Assembly (NCBI RefSeq): GCF_002797895.1 | Contig: NZ_PGES01000001.1 | Location: 3,968,001 to 4,032,000, forward strand | From: Janthinobacterium sp. 67 | GTDB taxonomy: Bacteria > Pseudomonadota > Gammaproteobacteria > Burkholderiales > Burkholderiaceae_D | Direction of reading: 5' to 3' | DNA length: 64,000 nt | Notes under the pieces: generated by a model | Told to the model about the DNA's origin: nothing | What the model saw: only the letters and a program-made list of their open reading frames with translations | Databases searched by the model: none | Shown here: piece after piece, positions 28,250-52,204 of the stretch | Position numbering within the stretch: the stretch's first letter is position 1 | How the letters are laid out: the number at the start of each line of letters is the position of its first letter | Made by a program: the position numbers and the translations under genes

Positions 28250-28276
28250 AAAAAAGGCCCGTCCAGGGCCTTTTTT
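28250..28276 (-). terminator. Strong bidirectional terminator closing the TPS cluster
   Basis: Perfect 11-base inverted repeat AAAAAAGGCCC / GGGCCTTTTTT (28250-28260 and 28266-28276) with a 5-base loop. On the minus strand it lies 20 bases after the ybjN-like stop and gives a GC stem followed by six T residues. It also works in the plus direction by symmetry. Confidence 0.85.
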
Positions 28277-28295
28277 AGCGCCGCTGGACGATTTA

Positions 28296-28787
28296 TCAGG
28301 CCGGCACGGTGTCTTCTTCTGCCACGCTGGCGGCCTCGACTACCGGTGCTGTGCTCGTATCGGCTGGCGTAAAGTTGCGCAAAAACAAGAAGAACTGGCC
28401 CATCATCTGCGTCCACAGTTGCAGATTGATATTCAGGTACTCCGTGCTGACGCCACCGGCGACCAGCACATCCATTTCCAGCACGACGAAATCGCCATGC
28501 TGGGCCACGCGGGCGAAACGCTTGCTGCGGTGCCATTCGGCCAGCAAGCCGGCCGGCAAGTCGCCGCCCTGCACGCGCAGCGGGCAGCTCAGGGTCAGAT
28601 CCGCGTACTGGCCAGGCGCCGCTTCATTACCCCACAGCACCTGGAATCCGATGCCATGGCTGGCACTGTGCAGGCGCACGACGCCATCGTGTTCGATGCT
28701 GGTCACGGCGCAGCCAGCCGCCTTGATGGCGTCGGCCGTTTGTTCCGCGTTCAGGGTGGTCAGCAAGTTGGTATTCGTGTTTTCCAT
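28296..28787 (-). CDS. YbjN-domain protein
   Basis: This protein of about 163 residues has the YbjN pattern: AGCAVTSIEHDGVVRLHSA, LLAEWHRSKRFARVAQHGDFVVLEMDVLVAGGVST and INLQLWTQMMGQFFLFLRNF. YbjN-fold proteins resemble type III secretion chaperones, and their molecular role is poorly known. Three in-frame ATGs compete (28802, 28793, 28787); the last has TGGAA at the best spacing. There is no signal peptide, so it should be cytoplasmic. It is the last gene of the cluster before the terminator at 28250-28276 and starts within 30 bases of the coiled-coil gene, so it is part of the same transcript. A role as a chaperone or regulator for the secretion cluster is inference. Confidence 0.8.
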   Translation of the reverse strand: MENTNTNLLTTLNAEQTADAIKAAGCAVTSIEHDGVVRLHSASHGIGFQVLWGNEAAPGQYADLTLSCPLRVQGGDLPAGLLAEWHRSKRFARVAQHGDFVVLEMDVLVAGGVSTEYLNINLQLWTQMMGQFFLFLRNFTPADTSTAPVVEAASVAEEDTVPA

Positions 28788-28813
28788 CGTCATTCCATTC
28801 ATTTCAAGAAAAA

Positions 28814-29488
28814 TTATTGGGGGGCCGGCGTTTCTGTTTGACGCGCATCAAAGCGGCCCTGATACAGCTGGTCGCCATACTGCTGCGCGATTTGCTCGAG
28901 TTTCACCCGGCTTTGCGCGGCAAACGGCTGGCGCGCCTTCATGACGTCCAGCACATCGAGGCCCTCATACGCTTGCAGGATGTCCTGTCCGACCGCATAC
29001 AGCTGGGCATTCTTGCTTTCGCAGCGCGCCAGGGCGCCCCGCTGGGCCGTCACTTCGCCGTCCAGGCGTGCACGCTCCGCTTCCAGCCGCTTGCCCGTGG
29101 CAGTCAATTGCTCGCTGGCCTGGCGGTACTGCGCCAGGCTGGCGGCCGCCTCTTGCGCGGCGGCGGCGCTGCGCTGTTGCTGCTCGCCCAGTTTTTCCCG
29201 CTGCGCGCGCTCTTGCGCCAGTTGCGACTGGCTGCGCGCCAGCTCCTTTTTCAAGCCGTCGCTGGCGGGCGCGGCGGCAGCGGGCGCCGCCTTGGCCACA
29301 GGCACGCCCTTGGCTTTGAGCACTTCCAGCTCGCCGCGCGTCTGCTGCAATTGCGCCGTCACGTTACGCAACTCGGCCCGCAAGCGCTCTTCCATGCTTT
29401 GCCCCTTCTGTCCCTGCGCCTGGGCCGTGCCGGCGGCCAGCAAGCTCAGCAACAGCAAAGGCAGGCGCATTTTGTTGGATATCAACAT
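28814..29488 (-). CDS. Periplasmic coiled-coil protein
   Basis: I do not recognise a named family. The 224-residue precursor has a signal peptide (MLISNKMRLPLLLLSLLAAGTAQAQ, cut after about residue 24) and a long alanine/glutamine/arginine-rich region (about 30-160) with heptad character, including LRAELRNVTAQLQQTRGELEVLK and LAQERAQREKLGEQQQRS. It ends with a compact segment CESKNAQLYAVGQDILQAYEGLDVLDVMKARQPF, with one mature cysteine. The start is well supported by AAGGAG five bases before the ATG. It lies 9 bases after the porin gene, so co-expression is likely. A periplasmic spacer or adaptor between inner- and outer-membrane parts is possible but unproven. Confidence 0.75.
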   Translation of the reverse strand: MLISNKMRLPLLLLSLLAAGTAQAQGQKGQSMEERLRAELRNVTAQLQQTRGELEVLKAKGVPVAKAAPAAAAPASDGLKKELARSQSQLAQERAQREKLGEQQQRSAAAAQEAAASLAQYRQASEQLTATGKRLEAERARLDGEVTAQRGALARCESKNAQLYAVGQDILQAYEGLDVLDVMKARQPFAAQSRVKLEQIAQQYGDQLYQGRFDARQTETPAPQ

Positions 29489-29497
29489 CGTGGCTCC

Positions 29498-31237
29498 TTA
29501 GAAACGCGCGTTCAATTCGATTTGCAGGGTGTCGATCGACAGCGCCGAACCGAACACTTCGCGGCTCGACGTCCAGCGGCCGTTCAGCCACGTATTCTTG
29601 TCGAGTGCATACGCGCCGCCCAGGTAGTAGCCGCGCGCATTCGTGCCGCCCAGGTGGAAAGTGGAATCGTTGTAGGCGTCAGGCAAGGCGTCCGGTTCGA
29701 TACGCTTATAGCCAAGCAAGACGTTCCAGTCGCCGCGCGCGGCCGGGCTGGCCTTGCCCAGGGTCGCCTGCAACATGTAGGCATTGCCGCCGCTCTTGAA
29801 ATCGGCTTGCGAGACGCCACCCGTGCCGCCGAAATTGTTCATGATGCCGCCCTTGGCGCGCGCCCACATTGCGTTCTTGTCGTAAGCCATGTTGCGCACA
29901 TAGTCGCCTTCGATGCGCAAGTCCGTGCCACCCGCGACCCTGCTATCCCAGCGCGCATTCAGGTTGGCCAGGCGGAATTTCGAGGCCAGGCCCACGAATT
30001 GCGGCTGCGGCGTATTGGCCGGGTCCAGCGGGTTCAAGGCGATATTGCGCAGCAACATCAGGCTATTACCCTTTTGCATGCTCGATGGACGCGACCAGTC
30101 CGTGCTGCAGCCATCGGCGCCCGCGTACAGCGCGCACGGCTGCGAGTATTCTCCGCTGATGTTGCGGAAGTTGTAGTAGGCCAAGGCGCCGCGCAATTGA
30201 TGGTCGCTATTGATCTTCCACGAGGCGCCCATTTGCGCGCCCAGCAGCCATTTGTTTTCGCTCGACATTTTTGCCTGGCTGCGGCTAGGCGCATTGTCGG
30301 ACGAATACTCGAGCGGAATCAGGCCCAGGGTACCGAAGACGGTGACGTCCTTGCTCTCGCCCACCGGTTGCTGCACCTTGGCGGCGATGCCGTCGAAATT
30401 GAGTTCGCTGGAAAACAGTTCGTCGCCAGACACGAATGGATTGTCGAAGCGGCCCGCCGTCAGTTTCAGCCAGGAAGCGGGCTGGTACGACAGCCAGGCC
30501 TGGTCCAGCCAGATGTTTTTCTTGCCCAGGCCGCCACCGAGGGTTTGCGTGGTGGACACCGGGCTGTCGTCGTTGCCGCTGGCCAGGCGGATGCCTGCTT
30601 GCGTGGTCTCGGAAATGTCGGCCAGGATACCCAGGCGGGCACGCGCGCGCAGCAAGTGCTTGCGGTCTTCGCGCGTGTTCAGCAACGCCGGCAGGGCCAG
30701 GTTGGTGTTCGAATTGACGTCGTAGCCGCTGCCGCTGTTGAGCGAGCGCCAGTCGATCTCGATATTGCTGTTGGCCATGTCGTAATAGCGCGATTCGTAG
30801 CGCGCGCGCACATCGCCTTCCAGGCGGATGCGCTTGGTCCAGGCCGGCGTTTCATTCGGCGCCGCCCAGCCGCCCGCTTTTGCCTCGGCCATGACCTGGC
30901 CCTTGATCTCGTCGCGGATCTGTTCGCGCACGGTTTGCGAAATATACGGCACACGCACGTCGCCCGGCTGCACCTGCGCCAGGGCGGCCGGCGCCGCAGC
31001 CGGACGGGCTTGCACCGCGGCCAGCGCTTCGCTCTGCGCCTGCGCCAGCAGCGCTTCGCCGGCATCCTTGTTCAGTGCGCCGCTCTGGATCAGGCCGCGG
31101 ATCAGTTTGACCATGGTGCTGTCGGCCGGTGCGGCAGCCTGGGCTTGCACCGTGCCTGCCGCCACGCTCAGGGCCAGGGCGGCCAGCGCCAGCGGGAGGC
31201 GGCGCGCACGCTGTGGGGAAGAAAATAAGGAATTCAT
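29498..31237 (-). CDS. Putative outer-membrane porin
   Basis: The 579-residue precursor has a signal peptide (cleaved after VQAQA near residue 34), an N-terminal helical/disordered stretch of about 90 residues (MVKLIRGLIQSGALNKDAGEALLAQ, rich in alanine) and then a beta-barrel region with alternating aromatic strands such as TKRIRLEGDVRARYESRYYD, LKLTAGRFDNPFVSGDELFSS and WNVLLGYKRIEPDALPD, ending in the terminal Phe typical of BAM substrates (IELNARF). This layout fits the putative porin family seen beside TonB/ExbBD genes. Substrate unknown. It lies 36 bases after tonB in the cluster, so it may be the energised or companion outer-membrane channel of the system; that link is inference. Confidence 0.82.
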   Translation of the reverse strand: MNSLFSSPQRARRLPLALAALALSVAAGTVQAQAAAPADSTMVKLIRGLIQSGALNKDAGEALLAQAQSEALAAVQARPAAAPAALAQVQPGDVRVPYISQTVREQIRDEIKGQVMAEAKAGGWAAPNETPAWTKRIRLEGDVRARYESRYYDMANSNIEIDWRSLNSGSGYDVNSNTNLALPALLNTREDRKHLLRARARLGILADISETTQAGIRLASGNDDSPVSTTQTLGGGLGKKNIWLDQAWLSYQPASWLKLTAGRFDNPFVSGDELFSSELNFDGIAAKVQQPVGESKDVTVFGTLGLIPLEYSSDNAPSRSQAKMSSENKWLLGAQMGASWKINSDHQLRGALAYYNFRNISGEYSQPCALYAGADGCSTDWSRPSSMQKGNSLMLLRNIALNPLDPANTPQPQFVGLASKFRLANLNARWDSRVAGGTDLRIEGDYVRNMAYDKNAMWARAKGGIMNNFGGTGGVSQADFKSGGNAYMLQATLGKASPAARGDWNVLLGYKRIEPDALPDAYNDSTFHLGGTNARGYYLGGAYALDKNTWLNGRWTSSREVFGSALSIDTLQIELNARF

Positions 31238-31273
31238 CGCTTCTTTCGGTAAATGAGGAATTAGTTCATGCGC

Positions 31274-31990
31274 TTACGGGCGCCGACCTTTAATGGAAAC
31301 GCGGGCCGGGAAACGCAGGGACGCCGGCGGCCGTTCATCGGCGCGGAAATCGCGCACCATGGCCAGCACTTGCTCATCCGTCTGCGCATTGCCCGTGCCT
31401 TGCACCAGCTGCACTTTCGTCGTCTTGCCTTCCGCATCGAGCCACAGGTCGACGCGGATGTCGGCAAAGGCCAGCTGGCGCGTGCGCGGGTCGCGGGCGA
31501 ACGCCAGTTGCAGCGCATTGGCCACATAGCGGCCATACGATGCCGCGCCGAGGCCGCCGCCACCGCCGCCGCCCGTCATGCCGCCGCCACGCCCGGCCTG
31601 GATGCCGAAGGCGTCGCTGCCAGCCTGCGCCGCGCCATCGATCGTGACGGGGTCGCCCTTGTCCGGCGACGGGCTTTCCGGCGCGTCATCCATGGGCTTG
31701 TCGGCCGGCGTCGGTTCCGGCTCCGACACTTCCGGCACCACCTTGTCCGGTGTCGGTTCCGGCAGTTTTTCCGGTTCCGGCGGTGGTGGTGGCGGCGGTG
31801 GCAGCATCAGCATCGGCGGCGCCGCCACTTCGCGCTTGGTGGCGGCCGTGTCCGACAGCAAATACCAGACCAGCGCGGCCAGCGCAGCGGCCAGCAGCAC
31901 GCCGCCGGCCACGCCGCCCCAGCGGCGCCACCACTGCGCCGCGCCCGACGATTCCGGGCCGGCCATCTTCATCATGTCGTCACGCTTCAC
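31274..31990 (-). CDS. TonB-family energy transducer
   Basis: The 238-residue protein has TonB architecture: cytoplasmic start, one membrane helix (about 25-45, GVAGGVLLAAALAALVWYLL), a periplasmic proline-rich spacer with a run of eight prolines followed by Glu-Pro and Lys-Pro repeats (63-110), a glycine-rich linker (132-148) and a C-terminal TonB-type domain (150-235) with VDLWLDAEGKTTKVQLVQGTGN. The start is a GTG with AGGAG six bases upstream. It follows exbD after 10 bases. The C-terminal domain resembles that of the STN regulator at 51375-52100, suggesting they recognise the same partner. It probably links ExbB/ExbD to an outer-membrane client of this cluster. Confidence 0.88.
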   Translation of the reverse strand: MKRDDMMKMAGPESSGAAQWWRRWGGVAGGVLLAAALAALVWYLLSDTAATKREVAAPPMLMLPPPPPPPPEPEKLPEPTPDKVVPEVSEPEPTPADKPMDDAPESPSPDKGDPVTIDGAAQAGSDAFGIQAGRGGGMTGGGGGGGLGAASYGRYVANALQLAFARDPRTRQLAFADIRVDLWLDAEGKTTKVQLVQGTGNAQTDEQVLAMVRDFRADERPPASLRFPARVSIKGRRP

Positions 31991-32000
31991 CTTGTGCTCC

Positions 32001-32411
32001 TCATGCCGGCTTGCCGGTCACCAGGCCCACCTGGTTCAGGTCGATGCGGCGCAGCAAATCGAGCACTTCGACCACTTTCGCGTACTGCACGGCGGCATCG
32101 CCGCGCACGATCACGGGGAAGTCGGGCGTGAGCGCTTTTTCCGTGCGCAAGCGCTCTTCCAGCTCGGGCAGGGTGACGGGATAGGCATCGAGGAAGACCT
32201 GGCCCGCGTTGTCGATGGTGATGGCCTTGGTCTTCGGTTTTTCCAGCGCCATGGCCGAGCTGGCCTTGGGCAGGTTGACCTTGATGCCGGGAATGCTGGC
32301 GTTGCTGGTCAAAATGAAGATCACCAGCACCACCAGCAGCACGTCGACGAAGGGCGTGATGTTGATGCCGCCGCTACGCTTGCGGGGGGTAAACTTGGCG
32401 GAGGTGGCCAT
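32001..32411 (-). CDS. exbD: ExbD-family biopolymer transport protein
   Basis: This 136-residue protein is the ExbD/TolR partner of the proton channel. It has a basic cytoplasmic start (MATSAKFTPRKRSGGINITPFVD), one membrane helix with the essential proton-carrying Asp near residue 22 in ITPFVDVLLVVLVIFIL, and a periplasmic domain ending in YAKVVEVLDLLRRIDLNQVGLVT. I start at the ATG at 32411, the normal ExbD start; the frame is open 37 codons further into exbB but that part is unlike the family. It lies 13 bases after the ExbB-fusion gene and 10 bases before tonB. Confidence 0.93.
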   Translation of the reverse strand: MATSAKFTPRKRSGGINITPFVDVLLVVLVIFILTSNASIPGIKVNLPKASSAMALEKPKTKAITIDNAGQVFLDAYPVTLPELEERLRTEKALTPDFPVIVRGDAAVQYAKVVEVLDLLRRIDLNQVGLVTGKPA

Positions 32412-32424
32412 GGTTATGCGCCCC

Positions 32425-34206
32425 TCACGCCTGCTGCAGCACGGGACGCATCTGGCGTCCGTCGCCCTGCTCTTCCGCCAGTCGCGTGGCGAATTCGTCG
32501 ACGAAGACGGCCATGTCGGCAACGATGGCGTCCGAACGCGAGGACAGCCAGTTGTAGCCGAACAGGGCGGGAATGGCCACGCCCAGGCCGGCGGCCGTAC
32601 ACAGCAGCGCTGCCGCCATGCCCGGCGCCACCGAATTGATGTCCACGGCGCCGGCCATGGCCGCCACGACGAACACCAGCATGATGCCGATCACGGTGCC
32701 GAACAGGCCGACGTAGGGCGCGCCTTCGATGGTGGTCGACAGCCAGATCATGCGTTTGGACATGCGTTCGCTTTCGCGCACCATCACGCCATCCATGGCG
32801 GCGCGGATGGCGCCGATGGTCGCGTTCGAGACGGCGTTCAAGTCGTAGCCGCGGTCGTGGCGGCGGCGCATCTCGTCGATGGCCACGTCATACAGACGCC
32901 ACAGCGAGGAATCCATCTTCACGGTTGTGTTCAGCTTGCCGCTGCGTGCCAGCTGGTCCAGCGGCGCGCCCGCGCCTTCGTGGAATGCTTGCATGAATTG
33001 CGCATTGGCGCGCGCAATGGCGCCATAGCTGCGGCCCTTGCCGATCATGATGATCCACGACAGGACCATCATCAGGCCCAGCACGCCGACGACGATCCAC
33101 GCGTCGAGCGGCATGGCGGCGATGATGAAGCCGAAATGGCTTTTGCCCGCCTGCTGTTCATCGGCGCCAAACACGGCCAGCCGCGATTCGGAGCCTTGCG
33201 AGACGGCGTCGGCCAGCAGCAGCGCGTCGGGACGGGCCGTGCGCGACAGGCGCAGCTCGTCGATGGCGCCCGTGAAGTTGGCCAGGGTGGCGGCGCCGGC
33301 AGCGACCGGCGGCGCATCGGCACCCACCGAGGCGGCCGTCGTAAAGGCTGGCAAGGCGGTGGCCAGCGACACGGCCGGACGGCCGCCCACGTACAGGGCG
33401 ACGTTGTTCTTGTCGGCCTTGACGGCCAGGTGCGACCATTGCCCGGCCTGGATAGGCTGGCCCGGCTTGCTGCGCTGGCCATTGACCTGCACGAAGGGCA
33501 CGCCCTGGTCCACGCCGATCAGCAATTCATTGGCGCCGTCGCGGCGCGCATACAGCACTTGCTGGGCGCCCAGGCTGTCCGGGCGCACCCAGGCGGAAAA
33601 CGTGAACGGCGCGCCGGCGGCCAGCGCCAGCGATGGCGAGGCGGGCAGCATCAGCGGCGTGCTGCCCAGGCGGGCGCCGGCGCCGATGACGGAACCGTCG
33701 AGCGATGGCACGGCCGTCTGGGCATGGTTGCCGTAGGCGGTGCTGTCGCGCGAAGGCACGCCAGGCTCGGTGAAGTGATACACAAGGCTGTAGTCGGGAT
33801 CGAAAGTACGCTGGCCATTGCCGGAAGCGGGCGCTTTCGGATTGCCGTAGTACATCCACAGCTGCTGCGGCGTACCGGCCGTCAGTGCCGGCACGTCGAC
33901 CCAGATCAGGGCGATGCCCAGCAGCGGATTGAATTGCTCGATCTGGTGGTTCAGCACCGTTTTATCGTCGCCCGCCACGAAACGCAGGTCGGCGCCATTG
34001 TCGCTGACGCCTTCGAAATTGAAATTACCTGAATGCAAGCGCAGCAGCACGGGAATGCGGCCGGGATCGCCGCCCACGGCGCCCGCCTTCGGGCCGGCGT
34101 CGACGGTGACGGGTTTGCGGTAAGCCCAGTCGGGCTGCCACCAGGCATGCGCCAGGCCGGGAACGAGCGTGCCCAGGATCGTGAGCAGGAAAAAAAGACG
34201 TTGCAT
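32425..34206 (-). CDS. DUF2341-LamG-ExbB fusion (MotA/TolQ/ExbB proton channel)
   Basis: The 593-residue protein joins an extracytoplasmic carbohydrate-binding-like front to a proton channel. A signal peptide (1-21, cut after LAHA) is followed by a DUF2341 domain (about 45-125; GADLRFVAGDD, IWVDVPAL, LWMYYGNPKA), a LamG/concanavalin-like domain (about 135-335; YHFTEPG, FTFSAWVRPD, GQWSHLAVKAD, GAIDELRLSRTAR), a first membrane helix (366-388) and the MotA/TolQ/ExbB domain with helices near 496-519 and 530-553 (GAPYVGLFGTVIGIML, APGMAAALLCTAAGLGVAIPA). ExbB normally has an outside N-terminus, so the lectin-like part would sit in the periplasm. It follows tpsB after 56 bases. The proton channel should be functional with the adjacent ExbD; what the lectin-like module binds is unknown. 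Confidence 0.92.
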   Translation of the reverse strand: MQRLFFLLTILGTLVPGLAHAWWQPDWAYRKPVTVDAGPKAGAVGGDPGRIPVLLRLHSGNFNFEGVSDNGADLRFVAGDDKTVLNHQIEQFNPLLGIALIWVDVPALTAGTPQQLWMYYGNPKAPASGNGQRTFDPDYSLVYHFTEPGVPSRDSTAYGNHAQTAVPSLDGSVIGAGARLGSTPLMLPASPSLALAAGAPFTFSAWVRPDSLGAQQVLYARRDGANELLIGVDQGVPFVQVNGQRSKPGQPIQAGQWSHLAVKADKNNVALYVGGRPAVSLATALPAFTTAASVGADAPPVAAGAATLANFTGAIDELRLSRTARPDALLLADAVSQGSESRLAVFGADEQQAGKSHFGFIIAAMPLDAWIVVGVLGLMMVLSWIIMIGKGRSYGAIARANAQFMQAFHEGAGAPLDQLARSGKLNTTVKMDSSLWRLYDVAIDEMRRRHDRGYDLNAVSNATIGAIRAAMDGVMVRESERMSKRMIWLSTTIEGAPYVGLFGTVIGIMLVFVVAAMAGAVDINSVAPGMAAALLCTAAGLGVAIPALFGYNWLSSRSDAIVADMAVFVDEFATRLAEEQGDGRQMRPVLQQA

Positions 34207-34262
34207 GACAGTGATTCTCCGAAGAAAAGTCTAAAAAAGTGCGGTGCTGGTGAGCTGGCCCG

Positions 34263-35900
34263 TCAGTAGCTGGCCGACAGGTTGAAATTGATGTGGCGCA
34301 CGTGCTTGTGCGTGCGCGGGCCATCGCGCAGCGGGTAGGCGAAATCGATGCGGCCATTCAGGTAGCGCAGGAACTGGAAGCTGCTGCCCACGCCCACCGA
34401 AGCCAGGCCGAACAGGTCTTTCTGTTCCGGCAGCGGGTCGCGCAGGCGCAGGCGCGCGCCATCGGCAAAGGCGAACAGACGCCAGTTTTCCAGACGGCTG
34501 AAATACGTCAGCTGGGGCGTGCGCCACTCGACGGTGCCCGAGACGCCGTAGTCGCCCGTCGCTTCGGCCGACAGGTAGCCGCGCACGGAATTGGCGCCGC
34601 CGGCGGCCATCTGTTCGCCCGACACGAGCGCCGCGTCGGCCAGCTGGCCCGACATGCGACCATGCAGCTGCGCGCCGCTGCCCAGGGTGTAAGTGGCGTT
34701 GGCGTCGCCCTTCAGGACGAGGAAGCTGGGCGAGGCCTTGTAGCGCTTGTCGTCGTAGGCCGCGCTATTGCTGCCGTAGCCGAACGAGGCGCGCGTGCCG
34801 GCCACCAGCGACAGGCCCAGGCCATACGTCGTCGCCTCCGTCTGCGCAAAGCCGTTGTAGGCCACGCTCAGGGGCACGTATTTCAAGGGCACGCGGGTGC
34901 CGCTGCCGTTCAACTGCAGCGCTTCCTGGTTATCCTTGAAATCGATGCCGGCGCTAAAGCTGTGCCACCAGATGCCGCTGTTGGGCACCGTGTAATTGAG
35001 CTTCATGCCCAGCGCGTGCCCCTTGCCCAGCACGCTGGTGCCGCCCGTGCTGGCCACGTTGCTGTTCGACTGGTAGCCGGTCGCTTCCACGCTCCAGCCC
35101 TGCGTGCCGATCGGCGCCACGTACGAGGCGGACCACACCTTGGTCTGGTTCAGGTCGCCCGGCGTGCCGAAAAAGCTGATGGTGGCGCTATGCCCCATCT
35201 GCCACAGGTTGTCGTGGCCGACCGACACGCTCGTGCGCAATTTTTTCGTATCGGCGCTGTAATCGTTGTTCAAGCCCACGCTGGCGCGCCACGGGCTGCT
35301 GTCTTCCACTTTCAAATCCACGTCCATGGTGCCGGGCAGGCTGCCCTGCTTGACCAAGGGCATCACCTGGCGCTTGAGCCCCCGGTTCAAGGCCGTCAAT
35401 TCCACCTGCGCCTGCGTAAAGTCCGGTACCTTGCCTTCCGTCAGGGCCGGCACTTGCTGGCGCACGTCGAGCGGCGAGTTGTATTGCGCACCGACCACGC
35501 GCAAGCGTCCCACCTTCGTTTCGCTCACCTGCAGCACCACCACGCCCTGCTCCACCTGCTGCTCGGGCAAGTCCACGTAGACGGACTGGTAGCCGCGCGC
35601 CTGATAGGCAGCGACGAGGGCGTCGCGCGCCCCTTCCACGTCCTTCAGGGTACGGCCCGGTCCCAGGAAGGGCGTGACCGCCTCTTCGATGGCGCGCGCA
35701 TCGAGCACGGTATTGCCGCGCACCAGGTATTCCTCGATCGTCAGCTGCCGTTCCGGCGCGGCGACGGGAGCGGCGGCCGGCACCGCGTCCTGCGCGCGCG
35801 CCATGCCGGGCAGCGCCAGCATGGCCAGGCACAGCATCGTCAAGGCCCTTGCAGGCGCCGCTGGCGGCACGCCCCTGCCCTTGGTTGTCATTTCACGCAT
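34263..35900 (-). CDS. TpsB/ShlB-family outer-membrane secretion protein
   Basis: This 545-residue precursor is the transporter of a two-partner secretion system. It has a signal peptide (cut after MARAQ near residue 37), a POTRA domain region (about 50-200; LTIEEYLVRGNTVLDARAIEEAV, YQARGYQSVYVDLPEQQVEQGVVVLQVSE) and a 16-strand barrel region. The conserved loop-6 motif is VRGYL near residue 435, and strand 13 has GRIDFAYPL. Start choice is open between ATGs at 35900 and 35891. It lies 147 bases downstream of the tpsA gene and should secrete that protein. TpsB proteins normally need no energy input, which makes the following ExbB-ExbD-TonB genes notable. Confidence 0.94.
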   Translation of the reverse strand: MREMTTKGRGVPPAAPARALTMLCLAMLALPGMARAQDAVPAAAPVAAPERQLTIEEYLVRGNTVLDARAIEEAVTPFLGPGRTLKDVEGARDALVAAYQARGYQSVYVDLPEQQVEQGVVVLQVSETKVGRLRVVGAQYNSPLDVRQQVPALTEGKVPDFTQAQVELTALNRGLKRQVMPLVKQGSLPGTMDVDLKVEDSSPWRASVGLNNDYSADTKKLRTSVSVGHDNLWQMGHSATISFFGTPGDLNQTKVWSASYVAPIGTQGWSVEATGYQSNSNVASTGGTSVLGKGHALGMKLNYTVPNSGIWWHSFSAGIDFKDNQEALQLNGSGTRVPLKYVPLSVAYNGFAQTEATTYGLGLSLVAGTRASFGYGSNSAAYDDKRYKASPSFLVLKGDANATYTLGSGAQLHGRMSGQLADAALVSGEQMAAGGANSVRGYLSAEATGDYGVSGTVEWRTPQLTYFSRLENWRLFAFADGARLRLRDPLPEQKDLFGLASVGVGSSFQFLRYLNGRIDFAYPLRDGPRTHKHVRHINFNLSASY

Positions 35901-36047
35901 CTTCCATTCACCTTAAAATCAAACGGTTGCCCTGTGTTGCGGCGCTGGGCCGGCGTTTTTTTTGTTGCTAATGCTGATCTACTGATGCCTAGACAGCCGC
36001 CGCGCGCGACGACTGCCGAATGTCATCAAATGTTCATAAAACTCCGC

Positions 36048-48000: not shown

Positions 48001-49688
48001 ACCAAGTCGCGGCGGTCGACCCACACGTCGCTGTTGTTCAGGTATTTGGCGTCGCGGCTGCCCGGCGCGTCGCGCTGTTCGTTGCCCTGCACGTTGATCA
48101 GCACATTGTTGCTGCTCATGTCGACCTTCACGCCGACGGCGCCAGACACATCGATGGCGGCGTCGCGCGCCACGTGGCTGCGGCGGGCCGCATCGGCCAG
48201 CACCTGGCCGCCCGTGGCCAAGGTCAGCGAATCGCCTTCGAACTCGATGTTGCCGGCGGAGACGATGCGCACCAGCGACTGGTCGCGCCGGTCCTGCGGC
48301 GTGTCCGTGCCCTTGCCCGTGTCTTTCAGCAAGGTGTCGCGCTGCACGTCGAGCGCCGTGGCGCCGTTGTCGTCGATGACAATGGCGCTGACGCTGCCGC
48401 GCGCCAGGGTGACGGCGGCGTTCTCGCCCGCCGCCGCCAGGTGGATCGTGCCGCGGCCATCGACGGTCGTGCTCGACAACAGCACGCCATCTTGGCGCAC
48501 GCTGTTGCCGCTGAGCGTGATGTCGCCCGTGGCCGCCTGGATCAGGCCGTTATTCACGACGCTGCCGGCTCCGCTGTCGGCCACGCGAAGCATCTCGACT
48601 TCATTGCCGCGCGTGCTCGAATACGGGTTCTTGTCCGTGCCCATGCCCTGGCGCACGGCGATGGCGTCGCCGGCCGCCAAGGTGGTCTGGCCATTCGGCG
48701 TGGTGATGGCGCCCGCATTCTCGACGGCGCGGCCGGCCAGCAGCACATAGCCGCCGCCTTCCGTCACCGTCTGCGGCTTGCGCGTGTCGATGCGCGCGCC
48801 GGCGGCGACGACGACGTCCGCCTCGGCCGCCGCATGCGTAAAGGTATTCTGGCCCAGCAGCAAATCGTTCGCGAAGGTCGGCACGGCGCCCGTGCCCTGC
48901 GTCTTGCCGTACAAGCCGCTCTTGAACTGGCTGTCGCTCATGCCCATGGCGGCGGCGGCCAGGTTGCGCGTATCGACCTGGCTGCTGCCCGCAAACACGA
49001 TGCCGTTGCGGTTGACGATCATCACCGTGCCGTCGGCCTTGATCTGGCCCTGGATCTGGCTGGGGCGCGCCAGCGGATCGTTGACGCGGTTCAACACGGA
49101 CCAGTGCGATTTCTGGTCGAACTGCAAGGTGGTGTTCTTGCCGACATTAAAACTTTCCCAGTTCAAAATCGCCTTGTCGTCCGTCTGCGCGACCTTCACG
49201 ACGGTCTTGCCGTCGGCCTGGGTTTGCACGGGAGCCTGGGCGTTGAGCCAGCCCGCCGTCAGGCTGTTGCTGTCGACCTGCAAGCCGCCCTTGACGAGGC
49301 CGTCGGGCGCGCCGCCGGCCGCCAGCGCCGCCTGGCGCGCGGCCGCCTGCACCGCCTGTTCGGCGGCGATGCCGCGCGCGGTCAGCAACAAGTTGTTCAG
49401 CGATTGCTGCAGCTTGCCTTCGGCCTTTTGCTGCTGCAGCAAAGGGTTGTTCAGCGAGGTGGCCGGCTGGCCATTCGGCAAGCGTCCCGTAGCGGTGGCC
49501 GTGCCCTGCTGCGCTCCCTTGCCCGCAAACCAGGCGCCGCTGAACGGCTGCTGCGCCTGCGCGCCGCCTGCCTGCAGCAGCATGGCGATGGCCAGCGCCA
49601 GCGGTTTCAAGCGCACCGGGCGCCCGTTGTGGCTGCCCGCCATGGAGGAGGAGGATGCGTGTTTCGTGACCGACTTGCTTCGCTGCAT
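36048..49688 (-). CDS. Giant filamentous haemagglutinin-type TpsA exoprotein
   Basis: A single intact frame of 4546 residues (about 450 kDa). It has an extended signal peptide (1-45, cut after GGAQA), the TPS secretion domain (about 100-330) with ILNWESFNVGKNTTLQF near 174-190, the NRNGI motif at 226-230 and VDTRNLAAAAMGMSD, followed by thousands of residues of imperfect beta-helix repeats rich in Gly, Ala, Asp and Leu. The C-terminal 500 residues include a helical insertion (YMDPAKLADPAKPLADQ onward) and a DUF3739-type end with GGNILAWSATGDINAGRG and PPGDIDLIAPLGSIDAGEAG. No toxin, protease or CDI-like VENN module was recognised, so an adhesin or surface fibre is more likely than a contact toxin. 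One rare cysteine pair is in TCAKAGGACAG. The ATG has AAGGGA eight bases upstream. Confidence 0.95.
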   Translation of the reverse strand: MQRSKSVTKHASSSSMAGSHNGRPVRLKPLALAIAMLLQAGGAQAQQPFSGAWFAGKGAQQGTATATGRLPNGQPATSLNNPLLQQQKAEGKLQQSLNNLLLTARGIAAEQAVQAAARQAALAAGGAPDGLVKGGLQVDSNSLTAGWLNAQAPVQTQADGKTVVKVAQTDDKAILNWESFNVGKNTTLQFDQKSHWSVLNRVNDPLARPSQIQGQIKADGTVMIVNRNGIVFAGSSQVDTRNLAAAAMGMSDSQFKSGLYGKTQGTGAVPTFANDLLLGQNTFTHAAAEADVVVAAGARIDTRKPQTVTEGGGYVLLAGRAVENAGAITTPNGQTTLAAGDAIAVRQGMGTDKNPYSSTRGNEVEMLRVADSGAGSVVNNGLIQAATGDITLSGNSVRQDGVLLSSTTVDGRGTIHLAAAGENAAVTLARGSVSAIVIDDNGATALDVQRDTLLKDTGKGTDTPQDRRDQSLVRIVSAGNIEFEGDSLTLATGGQVLADAARRSHVARDAAIDVSGAVGVKVDMSSNNVLINVQGNEQRDAPGSRDAKYLNNSDVWVDRRDLVLVPAGTNGYATDRWYTAGGLLEVSGYLNTSGHGIGEWAAQGGTVGFGGGEVVTQAGSRINIAGGSLDVQTGMVKQTWLKGADGAMYKLSTAPGDNLYTGLYRGYESTHARWGANTTETHANALIGPRERLENGYTVGRDAGRLVVSTGAAVLEGDVDTSVFQGERQQRKRDDGVDGYKQAQTSAARAGQLIVGKMTPVFDPKAGQLRDSPQAVLENVEIGKVASVADGQLLSAALPAARAKTLQLDADWLNGLELGALNIYAYDKLDVNADVRVADGGDIALHATDVAIKANVSARSGSIAVGNMVSRYQANMGAVWIDGPVSPEGRATSPAGVRVAPGVRLDARGLWSNLELDPGAVAGLPYVNGGKVTLKSSGGIELAGGSVIDVSSGAALMSNGSLQGGRGGDIALAVDLPREKTPTGAVLKLDGELRGHGVKGGGRLMIDSGTAVSIGGKLQDGDVLPGGSSAPVGLRLADEFLIAKGEKIPFDFALSTSVIKPGQTLSMPVTVDVSTQKPLVLGSDLLVPPGASFFINGTTYVWSGSIAPAGSVVTAINGLATGFEVSAAAFPNGLPIVPVTTQYAAGSIAADDVRAPRGVLLPTGTMLGRDVAVQPMLSLDASLFQSGFADYAVTGRDGVVVVKDAHIDVKMPVLRFNPATGHAVASGTDPAAALEVWTPELYQEDARKGRLTQRAGADLTLTAGSPYVKGALAVAQGAVVTVDPGRQISMTSNGQVSIDGRLDAWGGKIAVLPGTLGTGSDADVPNGKGQATSIWIGEHAVLDVAGRATVATDMRGGRYGRADKGGSIEIGARYKADAASVDAADAFVVVRPGALLDASGAQATLDLPNQGAVNVAGSGGLISLSSYNGIFADGTLRAVAGGTLAMALDTPNYGQVNRLTLEDDGVDNAVRVPREFVLAQVQGDSVLPAGLRAGQQDEALRYGSARLGADRVKAGGFDNLAMHVNGMLSVDGDVNLALGQSLRLSASSLGLAQQQQPLPQLDGEGQDKLPSLASQVHLAAPYVRLGTAARAQKDNYIVPNAVKGSKNSGKGRGMLGVPLVADGSLLQIDAGMLDLAGEVNMGTRGEIVQNGGTPLAVERDAFEQLTLNSRGDLRMSNNAALYQPGNATLVAAQIYPATGDSGMVTVGQSSRVDEYGNIRVTLDPLRTLNIGRSAGSATPNQPFSVFGSLSLIAPTINQHGVLRAPLGQITLGAEGFEANTGHVNLLPGSLTSVSAKGLTMPYGGTLDGLSYLYDGNDVVFKGVGNGPEIALVGAAVDVQAGAVLDLSGGGTLTGAAFLAGRGGSTDARLNPLVQMKPNGGFTLPGLNTNPVYAIIPGVQPDVAPLAAEQGAGKPAVGRQITIAAGVPGLAAGTYTLLPSNFALLPGAFRVELNGLAGAVEAGGTVAMRNGSYATAAQTGIAGTAIRDAVPSQAILTPADVLRTYSQYNETGYAAFAVAQATRDGVPRATLERDAKGVRVQLIAPSLHSIENNHTPLMMDGSALYAPAEGGFGGSLLLGSGNHAATRYQVLADGTAAQADFDGVSVHASQINAFGAQRLGIGGLPRVTYSDFATGTNQRANIAAINESAGGIVLREGAVLKAAEVFLVTTKTDDGIFLEQGSGINTLGRGKAAWDSRDGFVYQPMGSVLAVSNGWLDMLPAVRTPSDSGGPGIIDIGTCAKAGGACAGTTSLYSEGTIAAVTERAFTLRDNVRYGTRNLVLGMGSINIGSAASLADASARGALPDGLALNQDVLDRLLRGDTSTGAPALESLGLTARNSFNFYDSSQLSTIDAATGKSSLSRLVLNTPAIYGYGGTDALARIHTDTLVWQGATNAPGAVVANGPGTGSGRLQIDAKRIEFGFTPDSRPDTIHNLDRLILGFGQVALNASEQLTANNKGSLSVYQSQSAWDTATNGYRYSGGDLLINTPLLTGAAGSVNRITAGGDLKVSAPAGATPATPTNAALAGALGAEVALNGNSVSVDTSMVLPSGKLTLSAERDVLLGDKAKLDLAGRKIDFYDTSKYSWGGDVILDSRAGDVRQAGASVIDLSAVNNRAGKLSVIATGDAAGTADLRGSLLGGASGHYDAGGTLVPYAAGGVEVRAQQIGDFAGLNQRLNTGKVFGSRSFQLKQGDLTIGDEVKAREVSVSVDGGSLSVSGRIDASGEQVGSIRLAGRDGVTIQSGAVLDAHGTVLRTDSYGQAIEAPNRAVIELAAPSGRLSLENGARFDLRSGDKGGNYGSIDLNARRLGGATGDDVDIDAAGALNVAGARTINVNAFWQYKDAPAGTGKDADGRSYQGINQAYLDEKHGDSQLFMAHALANGNLMNNKLRGLRGDANAFHLRPGVEIVSATPGGDLHIDGDIDLSGHRYDGVNPLARLSGVYGSGEAGALVVRAGGKLSVFGSITDGFDTRTLPVTPDDKGWQLVKGRLPWGGDVVVPQAGLVTLAEDTYFQSGTSVNFAVPMKAMQLRGGTLLAARATLTAELNLPAGSVLGGAVRDADGKVLYAAGTVLPKALALSSGMQLDPGLRLPGAASVAAMLWPANVALPFPEGKPRDTGDSVNPVNGVVLAAALALDKGSVLPAGTLVKLPGDATVVALRAEDGAGKQGRNLALAPMLAQGSQAWSLRLVGGADTAAADTRALRPHAKDAHLMLADTHYGMEERTSVKPGTGLPGKYIYSEEGIAAGLPEGEVNLADWGGEAALLENYSNWVIKIADGTPPEEVTKDEPARQLLFSVLRTGMGDLDLLAAGDFDMRSLYGVYTAGTQSASPLVDGKDLFNLPRGLNAKGKLLGALGDDKLTRFVDGGSESLYRAWYPEHGGNLLLRAQGDVKGDTVGTALQRREDAIGTLSAQQDTSDIGAWLWRQGSGSTGAGVPTAWWINFGTYVARPEGGDLFAGLPVVSGFTGIGTLGGGNVLLQAGGNAGMLTSRADPGGVFAPRSQGLNVAVGSTGRVTPDGKLLLTGGGDLDIRIGGGLNPVAEVRSFDANSDAPNADTRFERQYPTLNSTFTNLRGALRMEAGAVGGVELRFDRADPKESRPYETYAAGTAIASGGPILVPGDSGVRIDARGDLVLGGTADAGRVKQLGNGSPFNYQGVERQGEGWSWFSLWTPATAIDLFSAGGNLTPTSAWIQSDMGDNHAPTDARFVMPSVLRAVAASGSLYYGNASLGRLGEGGKVDMPQNGVILAPSPVAPQFVKTRTGQLEMLAADSIHAAGYPITASGADPRLLPSPFNPGFVGALDPVWFGLLPLHNVSANGLAPGALKWFGSSSNGASDASQQLYPLFSMTAPTVSDYVPVGQQPAHFYANSGDIVGLRTGGIVYRGTLKGETGPLGVWYEGGGAVAVRAGRDIVNSGTPLGSVEGVPEGAAGWTSQGFVGRPDFPDKPVVSGVSSARGNLFVHRNADDVSVVSAGRDIRYSTFYVAGPGQLNVSAGRDLYMADKAELRSIGSIVNTGPGERGNGAGISVAAGVGRNGPDYAAFAARYMDPAKLADPAKPLADQAGSAVYVYGGKLTLADWLRGQFAYSGDEAGASAFLGTKQAELEKAGQASGAVRRDLAREYAQVSHLHLVNWLTTRFGGDSGLGIRYDPTTDARSFFAALPKEQQQVYLSNVYFAELKAAGREYNDPDGMRRGSYLRGREAIATLFPAQDKAGQKIEYKGDLTMFSSALYTLNDYEGVYTKRPVAGVRYLSPQEWAEAGRPTVNVPHVIVNDAGIHTDVGGDIGITVPGGRALIGVDGGYAPGEGSGVLTQGAGEIQMYAKDSILLGQSRIFTTFGGNILAWSATGDINAGRGTKSTVVYTPQRRTYDSIGLVSLSPSTPATGAGIATLNPIPEVPPGDIDLIAPLGSIDAGEAGIRVSGNVNLAALQVINAENVQVQGKSAGLPVVASVNVGALSNASAAATQAVTAAQDVLQRERAATRQALPSLFTVKVLGFGNEQSDEAGAGKHQGGEPQASSYQPAGVVQVLGAGPLTAPQLQALTPNERRGLQP

Positions 49689-49821
49689 GGCGACATTCCC
49701 TTTTCATGTTCCGTTGCTGACCGATATCGCGAAGGGCAAGCGGCACGCACGGGGGCGGGCGGCAAGCACTGATTCGCGGCTTCCAGCAGCATTGACAGGG
49801 AACAAGGTCCGGGACTGCAAA

Positions 49822-49839
49822 AGGTCATGAAAATGTCAT
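49822..49839 (+). promoter_or_regulatory. Pho-box-like direct repeat upstream of tpsA (reverse orientation)
   Basis: AGGTCAT-GAAA-ATGTCAT matches the direct-repeat layout of a PhoB box (CTGTCAT, 4-base spacer, CTGTCAT) at 5 of 7 and 6 of 7 positions. It points away from tpsA, whose start is 134 bases away, so its function is doubtful. It is listed because the upstream operon has a better, correctly oriented box. Confidence 0.3.
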
Positions 49840-49843
49840 AATT

Positions 49844-49880
49844 GGCTGAGCACCCCGGCGCGCCAAGGCGGGGCTCAGCC
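49844..49880 (-). terminator. Hairpin at the end of the anti-sigma gene
   Basis: Perfect 8-base stem GGCTGAGC (49844-49851) / GCTCAGCC (49873-49880), extended by CCC/GGG pairs, overlaps the stop codon of the FecR-type gene. No good U run follows on the minus strand, so it may be an attenuator or mRNA-stability hairpin between the regulatory genes and tpsA. Confidence 0.5.
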
Positions 49881-50822
49881 GAACAGCACGATGCCGCCCG
49901 GCAAACGCGTCACGCGCGCGCCATACGCGTCCTGGATCAGGGCGATCACGTCATCGAGGCGGTCGAGCGAAAAGCTCGCTTGCACGCGCGCGTGTTTCAA
50001 GGCGTCGCCATTGAGGATCAGCTTGCCGGGGCGGTAGCGGTTCACTTCATCCACCACCTCGGCCAAAGTGCTTTGCTTGAAGACCAGCAGGCGCTGGCGC
50101 CACGCGCTGACGTCGCTTTTCGCCACCGCGCGGGCGATGCCGAAATGCTCGGGCCGGTAGCGCAGCTGCTGGCCGGCCGCCAGTTCCGCATCGTTGCCGG
50201 CCTGCGCCACGCGCAAGCGGCCCGCCAGGCACGTCACGCACACTTCCTGGCCAAACAGGCGGATATTGAAACGCGCGTTGCCGGCCGACACCGTGCCGTC
50301 GCCCGCCTGCACGCGCACGCTTGCCGCGCCGCGCAAGCCAGCCTGGAATTCCGCTTCGCCGGCCAGCAGCACCAGCGACGCGGCGCCGTCCTGCACGGGC
50401 GCCGCGTCGAGCCGCGTCTGCGTATTCATCTGCACCAGCACGCCGCCATCGAGCGCCACTTCGCGCTGCTCGCCCGTGCCCGTGGCGTAGTCGGCGGCAA
50501 GCCCGGCCACAGCCGGCCACAGGTCCGTCGGCGGGCGCAGCACCAGCAAGCCCAGCGAGGCGGCGACGGCGACACCAAGCCAGGCGCGCCGCGCCACGTT
50601 GACAGGCGCCTGCGCCCGCTTGACGGCGCGCGCGGCCGGCGCCATGGCGTCCCACACGGCGCGCGCTTCGGCAAAGGCCGTCGCATGCCTGCGGCTGCGC
50701 GCGCACCAGTGGCGAAACACTTGCGCGTCGCGCTCGCTGACCTGGCCCGAGGCCAGACGCACGACCCACGCCTGCGCTTCCTTCTGGATGACACCCATAT
50801 CGTCTTCCGCTTGTTCAGTCAT
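49875..50822 (-). CDS. FecR-family anti-sigma/sigma-regulator protein
   Basis: The 315-residue protein is a FecR-type inner-membrane regulator of the adjacent sigma factor. Residues 1-90 form the cytoplasmic domain (AWVVRLASGQVSERDAQVFRHWCARSRRHATAFAEARAVWDAM), one membrane helix follows near 95-115 (WLGVAVAASLGLLVL), then the periplasmic FecR domain (REVALDGGVLVQMNTQTRLDA, LLAGEAEFQAG) and a C-terminal STN-like domain (RYRPGKLILNGDALKHARVQASFSL). I start at the ATG at 50822; it overlaps the sigma gene stop by 8 bases. In known systems the periplasmic part receives the signal from the receptor STN domain, encoded here by 51375-52100. Confidence 0.92.
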   Translation of the reverse strand: MTEQAEDDMGVIQKEAQAWVVRLASGQVSERDAQVFRHWCARSRRHATAFAEARAVWDAMAPAARAVKRAQAPVNVARRAWLGVAVAASLGLLVLRPPTDLWPAVAGLAADYATGTGEQREVALDGGVLVQMNTQTRLDAAPVQDGAASLVLLAGEAEFQAGLRGAASVRVQAGDGTVSAGNARFNIRLFGQEVCVTCLAGRLRVAQAGNDAELAAGQQLRYRPEHFGIARAVAKSDVSAWRQRLLVFKQSTLAEVVDEVNRYRPGKLILNGDALKHARVQASFSLDRLDDVIALIQDAYGARVTRLPGGIVLFG

Positions 50823-51372
50823 GATGTTTAGACGTTTTTCCCGCGCCGGGACCGAAGCGCTGGATGAAATCGCGTCCCATGCGTTCGCAGCAATGTTCGA
50901 GTCCCGCGCGCAATTCCTTCTCCACGGTGCGGGCGGAAATGCCGAAGCGCTCGGCGATGTCGCGGTGCGGCAACTGGTCGACGCGGGCGGCGATGACGAT
51001 GGCGCGCCGGCGTTTCGGCAACTCCTGCAAAGCCCGTTCCAGTTCCTCGAGTTCGGCGCGCGCGCTGAAGGTGCGGGCCGGGTCGGCCAGCTCATCGGCC
51101 ATCTCGTACAGGTCGTCGATATCGGGCAGGCTGAGCAGACGCGCATTGTCGCGGCGTTGATCTTCCGCAATGTTGATGGCGATGCGCATCAGGTAGGCGG
51201 ACGGGTAGCTGATCGCCTCGGGCGCCGTCATCTTTTCCACTCTTAAATAGGTTTCATGCAGCGCGTCATTGGCCAGGTCTTCCGAGCCCAGGCGGCGCTG
51301 CAGGTGGCGGCGAAACTGTCCGTAGCGTTCCAGGAACAGCTTGCGCAGGGTGGTTTTGAGCAATTCCGACAT
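50815..51372 (-). CDS. FecI-type ECF sigma factor
   Basis: The 185-residue protein is an extracytoplasmic-function sigma factor of the iron-starvation/FecI type. It shows region 2 (FLERYGQFRRHLQRRLGSEDLANDALHETYLRVEK and YPSAYLMRIAINIAEDQRR, the -10 recognition helix) and region 4 (ELERALQELPKRRRAIVIAARVDQLPHRDIAERFGISARTVEKELRAGLEHC, the -35 helix-turn-helix). The ATG at 51372 is 2 bases after the stop of the STN gene, and its stop overlaps the FecR-type gene, so all three are one operon. It probably activates the tps genes downstream; the target promoter cannot be read with confidence. Confidence 0.93.
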   Translation of the reverse strand: MSELLKTTLRKLFLERYGQFRRHLQRRLGSEDLANDALHETYLRVEKMTAPEAISYPSAYLMRIAINIAEDQRRDNARLLSLPDIDDLYEMADELADPARTFSARAELEELERALQELPKRRRAIVIAARVDQLPHRDIAERFGISARTVEKELRAGLEHCCERMGRDFIQRFGPGAGKTSKHHD

Positions 51373-51374
51373 GG

Positions 51375-52100
51375 TCAGGGCGCCCCGGCCACGAGGTAGG
51401 GCGCGCAATCGGCGCCTGGGTCGGGCCGCGGCGTCAGTAAAATCGTCAGCGGCTGCGGCAAGCCGGCCGGCGGCGCGCCATCCATCAGCAGGCTGCGCAG
51501 GCGCTGCAGCACGGCGCGGTCGCGCTGTTCCACGCCGCTCGGCACGAGCACGTGCACGTCGCGCACCTTGCCCCGTTCGTCAAGCCACAACTGGAAGGCC
51601 AGGCGGTAGCGGCCGAAAGCGTCCGGATGCAAGCGGCACAGGGCGCGCGTGAGCGAGCGCTGCAGGACCGCCGCATAGCCTTGCAATGGTGCGCTGGCGG
51701 GAGCGGCTTCGGCCGGCACGGGCGGCGCCACAGGTGCATCGGCCAGCGCCAGCAAGGTAAACGCATTGCTGCCGCTGAAACGGGCGCCCAGCTGGGTTCC
51801 GACCAGCAAACGCTGCAACGCTTCGGCCGGCGTGTAGTCGCCGCGCACGGGCGCAGCCACTCTGCCGGCCGCCAGCTGGCTGCTGACGAGCACGGAATAC
51901 CCGGTCACTTCGCCAAACGCCACCAGGGCCGCATCGAGCGGCTGGGCGGGCAAGTCGAAATGCATGCCCGCGTGCGCGCTGGCGTCAGCGCCGTCCGCAC
52001 TGGCGGCCGGCCGCACGAATGTCATCAAGGTCATGAATGTCATCAGCAAGCAGGCGGACAGGGCATTGCCCGTTGCGGCGTGGCGGTGGCTTAGTGTCAT
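51375..52100 (-). CDS. Barrel-less cell-surface-signalling receptor (STN plus TonB-C-like domain)
   Basis: The 241-residue protein has a signal peptide (cut after PAASA near residue 35), an STN secretin/TonB N-terminal domain (47-117; MHFDLPAQPLDAALVAFGEVTGYSVLV, PAEALQRLLVGTQL), a proline/alanine linker (120-138) and a C-terminal domain (140-225) with FQLWLDERGKVRDVHVLVPSG that resembles the TonB C-terminal domain at 31274-31990. No beta-barrel is present, so it cannot be an ordinary FecA-type transporter. The VreA component of Pseudomonas aeruginosa PUMA3 is a known barrel-less receptor of this kind. It probably signals in the periplasm to the FecR-type protein. It is the first gene of the cluster, behind a Pho box. 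Confidence 0.85.
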   Translation of the reverse strand: MTLSHRHAATGNALSACLLMTFMTLMTFVRPAASADGADASAHAGMHFDLPAQPLDAALVAFGEVTGYSVLVSSQLAAGRVAAPVRGDYTPAEALQRLLVGTQLGARFSGSNAFTLLALADAPVAPPVPAEAAPASAPLQGYAAVLQRSLTRALCRLHPDAFGRYRLAFQLWLDERGKVRDVHVLVPSGVEQRDRAVLQRLRSLLMDGAPPAGLPQPLTILLTPRPDPGADCAPYLVAGAP

Positions 52101-52186
52101 TTTCCAGGGGAATCAACGAGAACCTGCGCATGAAGTGTCTTGTCTGCAATGTTGTCTGCAGAATGGCAAGATGGTAGCTTCATAAA

Positions 52187-52204
52187 ATGACAACTGCATG
52201 ACAT
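52187..52204 (-). promoter_or_regulatory. Pho box upstream of the receptor/sigma operon
   Basis: On the minus strand this reads ATGTCATGCAGTTGTCAT: two 7-base repeats (ATGTCAT, TTGTCAT), each 6 of 7 to the PhoB consensus CTGTCAT, with the canonical 4-base spacer. Exactly 10 bases further comes TACCAT (complement of 52171-52176), a -10 hexamer at the spacing of PhoB-activated promoters. The gene start is 87 bases downstream. A TGTCTGCA direct repeat (52141-52148 and 52153-52160) lies between. Confidence 0.7.

Follow-up and report, generated by a model that had tools for sequence, protein, structure and literature searches.

We analysed a two-partner secretion (TPS) cluster carried on a 64,000-nucleotide stretch of the Janthinobacterium sp. 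67 genome (contig NZ_PGES01000001.1, positions 3,968,001 to 4,032,000; hereafter the window, to which all coordinates refer), in which the genes for a giant TpsA protein with a DUF3739 domain and for its transporter TpsB are followed by those for an ExbB with a lectin-like extension (lectin-ExbB), an ExbD, a TonB and a Porin_5 outer-membrane porin. DUF3739-type TpsA, lectin-ExbB and full-length Porin_5 appear from their distribution to be near-obligate partners, a link that we have not found in print, and the genomic case for an association of motor and TPS is strong. We interpret the cluster as a PUMA3-type and probably phosphate-starvation-controlled TPS locus of the DUF3739 class whose dedicated Ton-type motor may be an integral part of secretion, acting on the C-terminus of TpsA; this is a tentative reading on which our own judgement is divided, falling slightly on the doubtful side.

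TpsA, motor and porin genes co-occur across genomes

We counted the three genes in an even sample of 369 genomes from the class of Janthinobacterium, scoring three ExbB candidates per genome so that further copies may have been missed. DUF3739 was over its profile cut-off in 23 of these genomes and a full-length DUF2341-LamG-ExbB was present in 22, in one of them (G070) as two pieces of one frame, while 21 genomes held both (Fisher p 6e-31, the species not being independent). Full-length Porin_5, at 466 bits or more, was found in exactly the 24 genomes with DUF3739 or lectin-ExbB, and the next match was a partial one of 118 bits. All three exceptions fall in broken or incomplete assemblies. 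Genome G104, 85% complete in about 340 contigs, has lectin-ExbB and porin with no DUF3739 match; in G101 a contig ends at the DUF3739 domain and a separate one (L216) begins within ExbB and runs on into ExbD, TonB, porin and coiled coil; in G200, an assembly 64% complete, the DUF3739 contig (L217) stops about 300 bases past tpsA. In a second sample of 398 genomes from the phylum DUF3739 occurred in 14, three of which were also in the class sample, and each of the 11 further genomes carries lectin-ExbB (nine whole, one in two pieces in G551 and one contig-cut in G633), including three genomes outside the class. Co-occurrence of the set across genomes, the check named with the original prediction, was almost perfect for TpsA, lectin-ExbB and porin.

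Ordinary TPS systems provided the comparison. In 180 of the 369 class genomes POTRA_2, a domain typical of TpsB, exceeded its cut-off, and ordinary TPS therefore manages without the motor. Twenty ordinary TpsB loci, one just 5.9 kb long, gave no ExbB, TonB or porin match; 19 of them came from genomes without DUF3739 and the last was the second TPS locus of the Janthinobacterium genome, an ordinary one; that genome has a single DUF3739 TpsA. Systems such as FhaB/FhaC, HMW1 and CdiA/CdiB thus have the TPS domain and the POTRA_2-ShlB transporter in common with the cluster, but the ordinary loci lack lectin-ExbB, TonB and porin, and the ordinary TpsA proteins lack the tail motif described below. 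DUF3739 TpsA genes are open frames of about 3300-5100 amino acids, bar a few short or contig-cut ones. Some genomes hold two or three of them, namely G728 (L168, L175, L178), G551 (L170, L176, L179) and G506 (L172, L177), and one motor may there serve several TpsA fibres.

Organisation of the cluster and of related loci

All eleven predicted genes were found on the minus strand, with domains assigned by Pfam/NCBIfam profile search, as one 24-kb stretch that runs, again as predicted, from an exact Pho box (52187-52203) to a strong terminator hairpin (about 28250-28277). A regulatory module comes first, consisting of a VreA-like protein with an STN domain and a TolA/TonB C-terminal domain but no barrel (51375-52100, 241 amino acids), a VreI-like extracytoplasmic function (ECF) sigma factor (50815-51372, 185 amino acids; Sigma70_r2 and r4_2 over cut-off) and a FecR/VreR-like anti-sigma factor (49875-50822, 315 amino acids; FecR and DUF4880 over cut-off). 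Directly after vreR lies tpsA (36048-49688), encoding 4546 amino acids with a TPS domain at residues 149-400 and DUF3739 at residues 4332-4442 (36363-36695), and then tpsB (34263-35900, 545 amino acids; POTRA_2 and ShlB barrel); with the TPS domain in TpsA and POTRA plus ShlB barrel in TpsB the pair is a two-partner (type Vb) secretion system. The lectin-ExbB, a proton channel of the ExbB/TolQ family that carries DUF2341 and lectin-like LamG domains at its N-terminus (32425-34206, 593 amino acids), is 94-98% identical to many Janthinobacterium records and 84% to Janthinobacterium fluminis. It is followed by ExbD (32001-32411, 136 amino acids), TonB (31274-31990, 238 amino acids; TIGR01352, 30 bits against a cut-off of 27.1), the porin (29498-31237, 579 amino acids; PF16930, 633 bits), a coiled-coil-like protein with a signal-peptide-like start (28814-29488, 224 amino acids), which is PA0697-like by position and had no Pfam family over cut-off, and a YbjN-family protein (28296-28802, 168 amino acids; PF10722, 32.1 bits against a cut-off of 22). 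From vreA to ybjN the intergenic gaps are 2, -8 (an overlap), 186, 147, 56, 13, 10, 36, 9 and 11 bases, so that the range of 2-56 bases originally given fits most of them but not the 186 bases before tpsA or the 147 before tpsB.

Gene order was read in 113 ExbB loci, the denominators being those loci with enough flanking DNA. Downstream of ExbB we found ExbD in 106 of 107 loci, TonB in 107 of 107 and the porin in 103 of 106; a coiled coil (95/106), in most loci adjoining the porin, and YbjN (72/103) lay near ExbB. A TPS gene was upstream of ExbB in 72 of 76 loci, and 107 of 113 had any TPS gene, a count limited by the flanks. The lone absence of ExbD (L117) results from mislabelling of a long frame, and among the missing porins those of L128 (G010) and L208 (G618) are elsewhere in the genome and L139 is an orphan copy. 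Two genomes, G010 and G618, are rearranged, with the motor apart and both porin and coiled coil beside TpsA or TpsB, an arrangement in favour of the porin working together with the fibre. The named loci, mostly from Burkholderiales but also from Pseudomonas and Xanthomonadaceae, have the order TpsB-ExbB-ExbD-TonB-porin-coiled coil-YbjN with TpsA and the regulators before or behind. Six of these 80 loci (L044, L051, L067, L101, L103, L112) lack one of five core genes, and judged from locus length all six stop close to ExbB. Most of the distant class genomes have instead TpsA-ExbB-ExbD-TonB-porin-coiled coil, in many of them with a TpsB match about 11 kb upstream of DUF3739. Gene order is thus well kept, but the predicted co-occurrence of the whole cluster did not extend to its cell-surface signalling regulators; a complete VreAIR set was found in 38 of the 113 loci, a flank-limited count, but not in any of the stretches of up to 20 kb covering 19 distant class loci; the regulators therefore look optional. 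In many Burkholderiales loci coiled coil and YbjN are separated by about 1 kb (for example L057, 15376-16429) that might hold a PpiC gene, like the one present in Pseudomonas aeruginosa; the window has no gap of this kind.

A conserved motif in the C-terminal tail of TpsA

DUF3739 is followed by a low-complexity linker and then by a motif such as F-T-V-R-V-L-G-F-G (by eye), which tail alignment and pattern place in the window at residues 4486-4492 as VKVLGFG (36213-36233, minus strand). A second similar element, GVVQVLGAG, occupies residues 4518-4526 (36111-36137, minus strand), and elements like it were seen by eye in many longer tails. Seventy-six tails were listed and two low-scoring fragments dropped. 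Among the 74 counted, a strict pattern of the V-x-V-L-G-F-G type was present in 61 (about 0.1 in shuffled tails; 46 of the 58 tails of a diverse subset) and a loose pattern in 72 (5.1 in shuffled tails; 56 of 58), the motif ending one residue before the C-terminus in seven. The strict pattern occurs once in the 4546 residues of the window's TpsA, at 4486, and over 59 aligned sequences, the most distant of them 24% identical to that of the window, conservation reaches at least 90% at positions V390, G394 and G396 of the aligned piece. Neither pattern occurred in six ordinary TpsA proteins, taken from 11 large frames for having both an intact end and a Pfam TPS domain and including the second TpsA of the Janthinobacterium genome. 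One ordinary TpsA (L303:4813-11268) has a caspase-like domain (Peptidase_C14) near its C-terminus.

In a structural model of the last 450 residues of TpsA (mean predicted local distance difference test score, pLDDT, 80.9) the solenoid with DUF3739 is mostly confident and the tail motif falls in a stretch of pLDDT below 50, predicted to be disordered. A conserved motif within such a tail is how docking peptides commonly look. The model had no PDB match at E < 0.001, a result uninformative on novelty. The tail is also conserved at the 19 loci where VreAIR was not found within 20 kb, and its main reader should therefore be a core part of the cluster. Its resemblance to the TonB boxes found in receptors of the same genome, such as Q-R-V-E-V-T-G-S-S and Q-A-V-Q-V-T-G-A-R, offers a lead towards TonB. 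We derived a TonB-box matrix from 23 of 30 own-genome receptors chosen by hand, dropping seven in which no clear box was seen (L258, L264, L266, L271, L272, L275, L276). Identification of the tail as a classical TonB box by score was rejected as too weak, since this matrix does not rank it specially high.

The motor and its possible role in secretion

The ExbB and ExbD of the cluster are over the cut-offs of PF01618 (MotA_ExbB) and PF02472 (ExbD), and a TonB C-terminal domain over cut-off makes the cluster TonB a member of its family. The membrane aspartate of ExbD is present in 111 of 111 aligned sequences, and the threonines in transmembrane segments 2 and 3 (TM2, TM3) of ExbB are kept in 113 of 113 and 111 of 111 non-gap sequences, those of the window included in each case. 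We take these to be the proton-path residues, and their conservation therefore makes proton flow plausible. In domains and in these residues the set resembles ExbBD, TolQR and MotAB motors, from which the cluster ExbB differs by its N-terminal DUF2341-LamG part, by alanine in place of a TM3 glutamate and by scores below the equivalog cut-offs for ExbB (TIGR02797, 72 bits against 206) and TolQ (138 of 221 bits). DUF2341 appendages are noted as being of unknown function in one report (PMC12505986).

TPS proteins are exported N-terminus first through TpsB. If TpsA leaves in this way its C-terminus would be the last part in the periplasm, where TonB, or the lectin-ExbB, could grip the tail motif, and proton flow through ExbB-ExbD would then be spent on finishing export, on tensioning or holding the fibre, or on releasing it. 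Porin and coiled coil would form the outer-membrane and periplasmic seat of the assembly. Where VreA is present its TonB-like domain may read the same tail, with the STN domain reporting secretion status to VreR. The tail as the target of TonB is what we infer from its conservation, which would favour the fibre as TonB's object, while the obligate porin keeps the choice of the porin alive. A wider version, in which DUF3739 TPS systems form a branch of type V secretion driven by proton-motive force (PMF), lectin-ExbB, ExbD and TonB grip a TonB-box-like handle and push, hold or release the protein, and VreA reads that handle for sigma-factor control, we regard as unlikely.

Regulation and VreA

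The pattern TGTCAT-N5-TGTCAT was used to define Pho boxes. At up to two mismatches it matched the 64 kb of the window three times only: without mismatch before vreA (52187-52203, minus strand), with one mismatch in the gap before tpsA (49823-49839, plus strand) and with two in the gap before tpsB (36021-36037, plus strand), where GCAGTC follows on the minus strand. Their number is not raised (3 against 2.19 expected) and their positions alone are striking, both inexact sites lying in the long gaps within the cluster. Sites in both of these gaps therefore point to three promoters rather than one, the likely transcription units, as predicted from sequence, being vreAIR, tpsA and tpsB to ybjN. 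A single promoter for the whole cluster, as in the original prediction of one cluster driven from one Pho box, was rejected in view of the three sites. Among relatives, and set against mononucleotide shuffles, a Pho-box-like site was found in 38 of 93 loci near the TpsB start (1.4 expected), in 14 of 41 near the VreA start (0.4 expected) and in 3 of 37 near the TpsA start (0.5 expected), the counts including many closely related loci. A simple promoter scan of 27000-34000 gave no sigma-70 site.

At the other end of the cluster folding identified an intrinsic terminator on the minus strand, the 56-base piece examined folding at -31 kcal/mol (z -3.4) with one of 200 shuffles equally good. An SNF2-type helicase gene lies downstream of it (24983-28096, minus strand). 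Divergent from vreA is a 151-amino-acid frame (52203-52658, plus strand) whose start codon sits at the edge of the Pho box; it has a signal-peptide-like stretch and no Pfam match.

A structural model of VreA consists of an STN domain and a TolA/TonB C-terminal domain without a barrel, a make-up proposed in 2009 (PMC2729926). In a comparison with the other TonB-C-terminal proteins of the genome the cluster TonB was the best BLAST match of the VreA C-terminal domain (37.7 against 25.8 bits). The stronger claim that this domain is a proven copy of that of the cluster TonB was abandoned when a tree did not confirm the pairwise result. VreA could sense unfinished export if its C-terminal domain and that of TonB bind the same handle.

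Points against a secretion motor and alternative explanations

A number of observations weigh against a motor that acts in TpsA secretion. The TM3 glutamate of two TolQ/ExbB paralogues of the genome, presumably equivalent to E176 of E. coli ExbB, is alanine in 110 of 111 non-gap lectin-ExbB sequences, and the motor may therefore not work like a classical ExbB. Thirteen of the 74 tails miss the strict pattern and two the loose one, which alone is weak evidence; by the TonB-box matrix the tail site has a median rank at the top 1.7% of positions (98 of 120 TpsA, those with the strict motif), and that of the window scores below zero. Second ExbB-ExbD-TonB sets stand as orphans with no porin or TpsB within 20 kb in L139 (G136), L220 (G150) and L221 (G119), the last next to a weak TpsA_N-like frame of 46 bits. 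Cluster porins have a conserved strand-like N-terminal segment of the G-D/E-V-R-V-P-Y type (by eye), and a FastTree tree left the place of the VreA C-terminal domain unresolved. In liposomes TPS export has been reconstituted with no energy supplied and TPS translocation is stated to need no electrochemical gradient (PMC5422565), and the case for energy use in export here rests on sequence; what drives huge proteins through the outer membrane when neither ATP nor an ion gradient is at hand is described as an open question of type V secretion (PMC8151025, PMC5422565). In zebrafish, insertions in tpsA, tpsB, the tonB homologue and PA0696 of P. aeruginosa left VreI-induced virulence unchanged, the read-out being virulence and not secretion (PMC2729926). 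Deletion of vreA in P. aeruginosa left the regulon unchanged under phosphate starvation (PMC4971064), evidence against VreA being required as a sensor in that organism.

The main rival, serious although we consider it unlikely, is TonB-driven uptake, in which TpsA would capture a phosphorus-bearing polymer and the Ton motor would energise Porin_5 while TpsB is passive. The V-R-V-P-Y motif in the conserved N-terminal segment of the porin would then be a TonB box, and the arrangement would be like that of HxuA/HxuB/HxuC, for which pairing of a TpsA with a TonB-dependent transporter is a precedent (PMC5422565). Pho-box-like sites at three promoter regions and a porin as obligate as the motor would fit uptake and secretion equally, and a weak sub-cut-off Porin_O_P match also favours uptake. 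However the plug domain PF07715 was absent in the Pfam search of the porin, which gave only Porin_5 and that weak match, the porin stays with the TPS genes when the motor is elsewhere in the two rearranged genomes, and the conserved tail of TpsA is left unexplained. The Haemophilus haem system HxuCBA likewise has TpsA and TpsB with a TonB-linked outer-membrane protein, but HxuC is a TonB-dependent transporter, whereas the barrel in the window is a Porin_5 without plug and the motor is encoded within the cluster. A PDB sequence search with the porin of the window gave no useful match. Before POTRA1 the mature TpsB N-terminus is shorter than in ordinary TpsB (median 27, n=79, against 54.5, n=20); this trait is not unique to the cluster, as three of the 20 controls are short too, two of these belonging to the same order as the window.

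We judge it improbable that the genes are merely co-regulated, sharing a phosphate-starvation regulon and a neighbourhood in which the Ton system serves some other receptor or the VreA signalling branch. The P. aeruginosa Hxc type II system is described as part of the same regulon and the orphan motor sets in three genomes would fit this reading, yet even in distant genomes the genes co-occur one-to-one, whether or not VreAIR is near and in varied gene orders. PMF motors act on gliding adhesins in Agl-Glt and GldLM-SprB. That the motor of the cluster moves, retracts or tensions a finished surface fibre after passive export of TpsA seems very improbable, for although a MotA/TolQ/ExbB-family motor adjoins giant proteins with a conserved C-terminal handle on a flexible tail, the only hint of gliding is a GltJ-like match of the proline-rich part of TonB far below cut-off, gliding genes not having been searched for.

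Relation to PUMA3 and other known systems

The original prediction named relatives of the parts in P. aeruginosa, and the published PUMA3 locus bears this out. It comprises vreAIR, pdtA, phdA, pdtB, exbB2, exbD2, tonB4 and PA0696-PA0701, with PhoB binding the vreA, pdtA and phdA promoters, the last of which covers pdtB, exbB2D2, tonB4 and PA0696-PA0701 (PMC4971064). The window likewise has the order vreA-vreI-vreR linked to tpsA, tpsB, exbBD and PA0696 homologues and a Pho box at vreA. As compared from published descriptions and not from P. aeruginosa sequences, the likeness extends to the three-gene signalling module with its barrel-less STN/TolA-like VreA, to Pho boxes at the promoters of vreA, pdtA and the pdtB-exbB2-exbD2-tonB4 unit and to the order TpsB-ExbB-ExbD-TonB-porin-(PA0697)-YbjN. 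The window differs in having no hxc/lapA block, phdA or PpiC gene between its cluster genes, whose gaps leave no room for them. Homologues of PUMA3 were reported from a Janthinobacterium sp. in 2009 in four repeated clusters, with linkage either to tpsA or to tpsB together with homologues of exbBD and PA0696 (PMC2729926), whereas a single DUF3739 TpsA is present in the genome studied here. The cluster thus belongs to a known kind, and the view that it looks little described did not survive, as the P. aeruginosa unit is described with TonB (PA0695/tonB4), putative porin PA0696, PA0697 and the YbjN protein PA0698 and Janthinobacterium homologues were on record. The exbB2-exbD2-tonB4 genes of P. 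aeruginosa were called still uncharacterised in 2020. A literature search, with most subscription journals outside its reach, found no paper with the term DUF3739, and no test of energised TPS was apparent from the titles and abstract starts that it covered.

Implications for type V secretion

The recurring pairing of a giant protein with a motor suggests that a secretion route held to be free of energy input has a branch with an engine. If this TpsA class does carry its own proton motor and handle, the question of what drives export becomes directly testable by removing either. A secretion role for the motor would, if true, be the first function assigned to exbB2-exbD2-tonB4 of P. aeruginosa and to lectin-ExbB proteins with DUF2341, and might supply one for VreA too.

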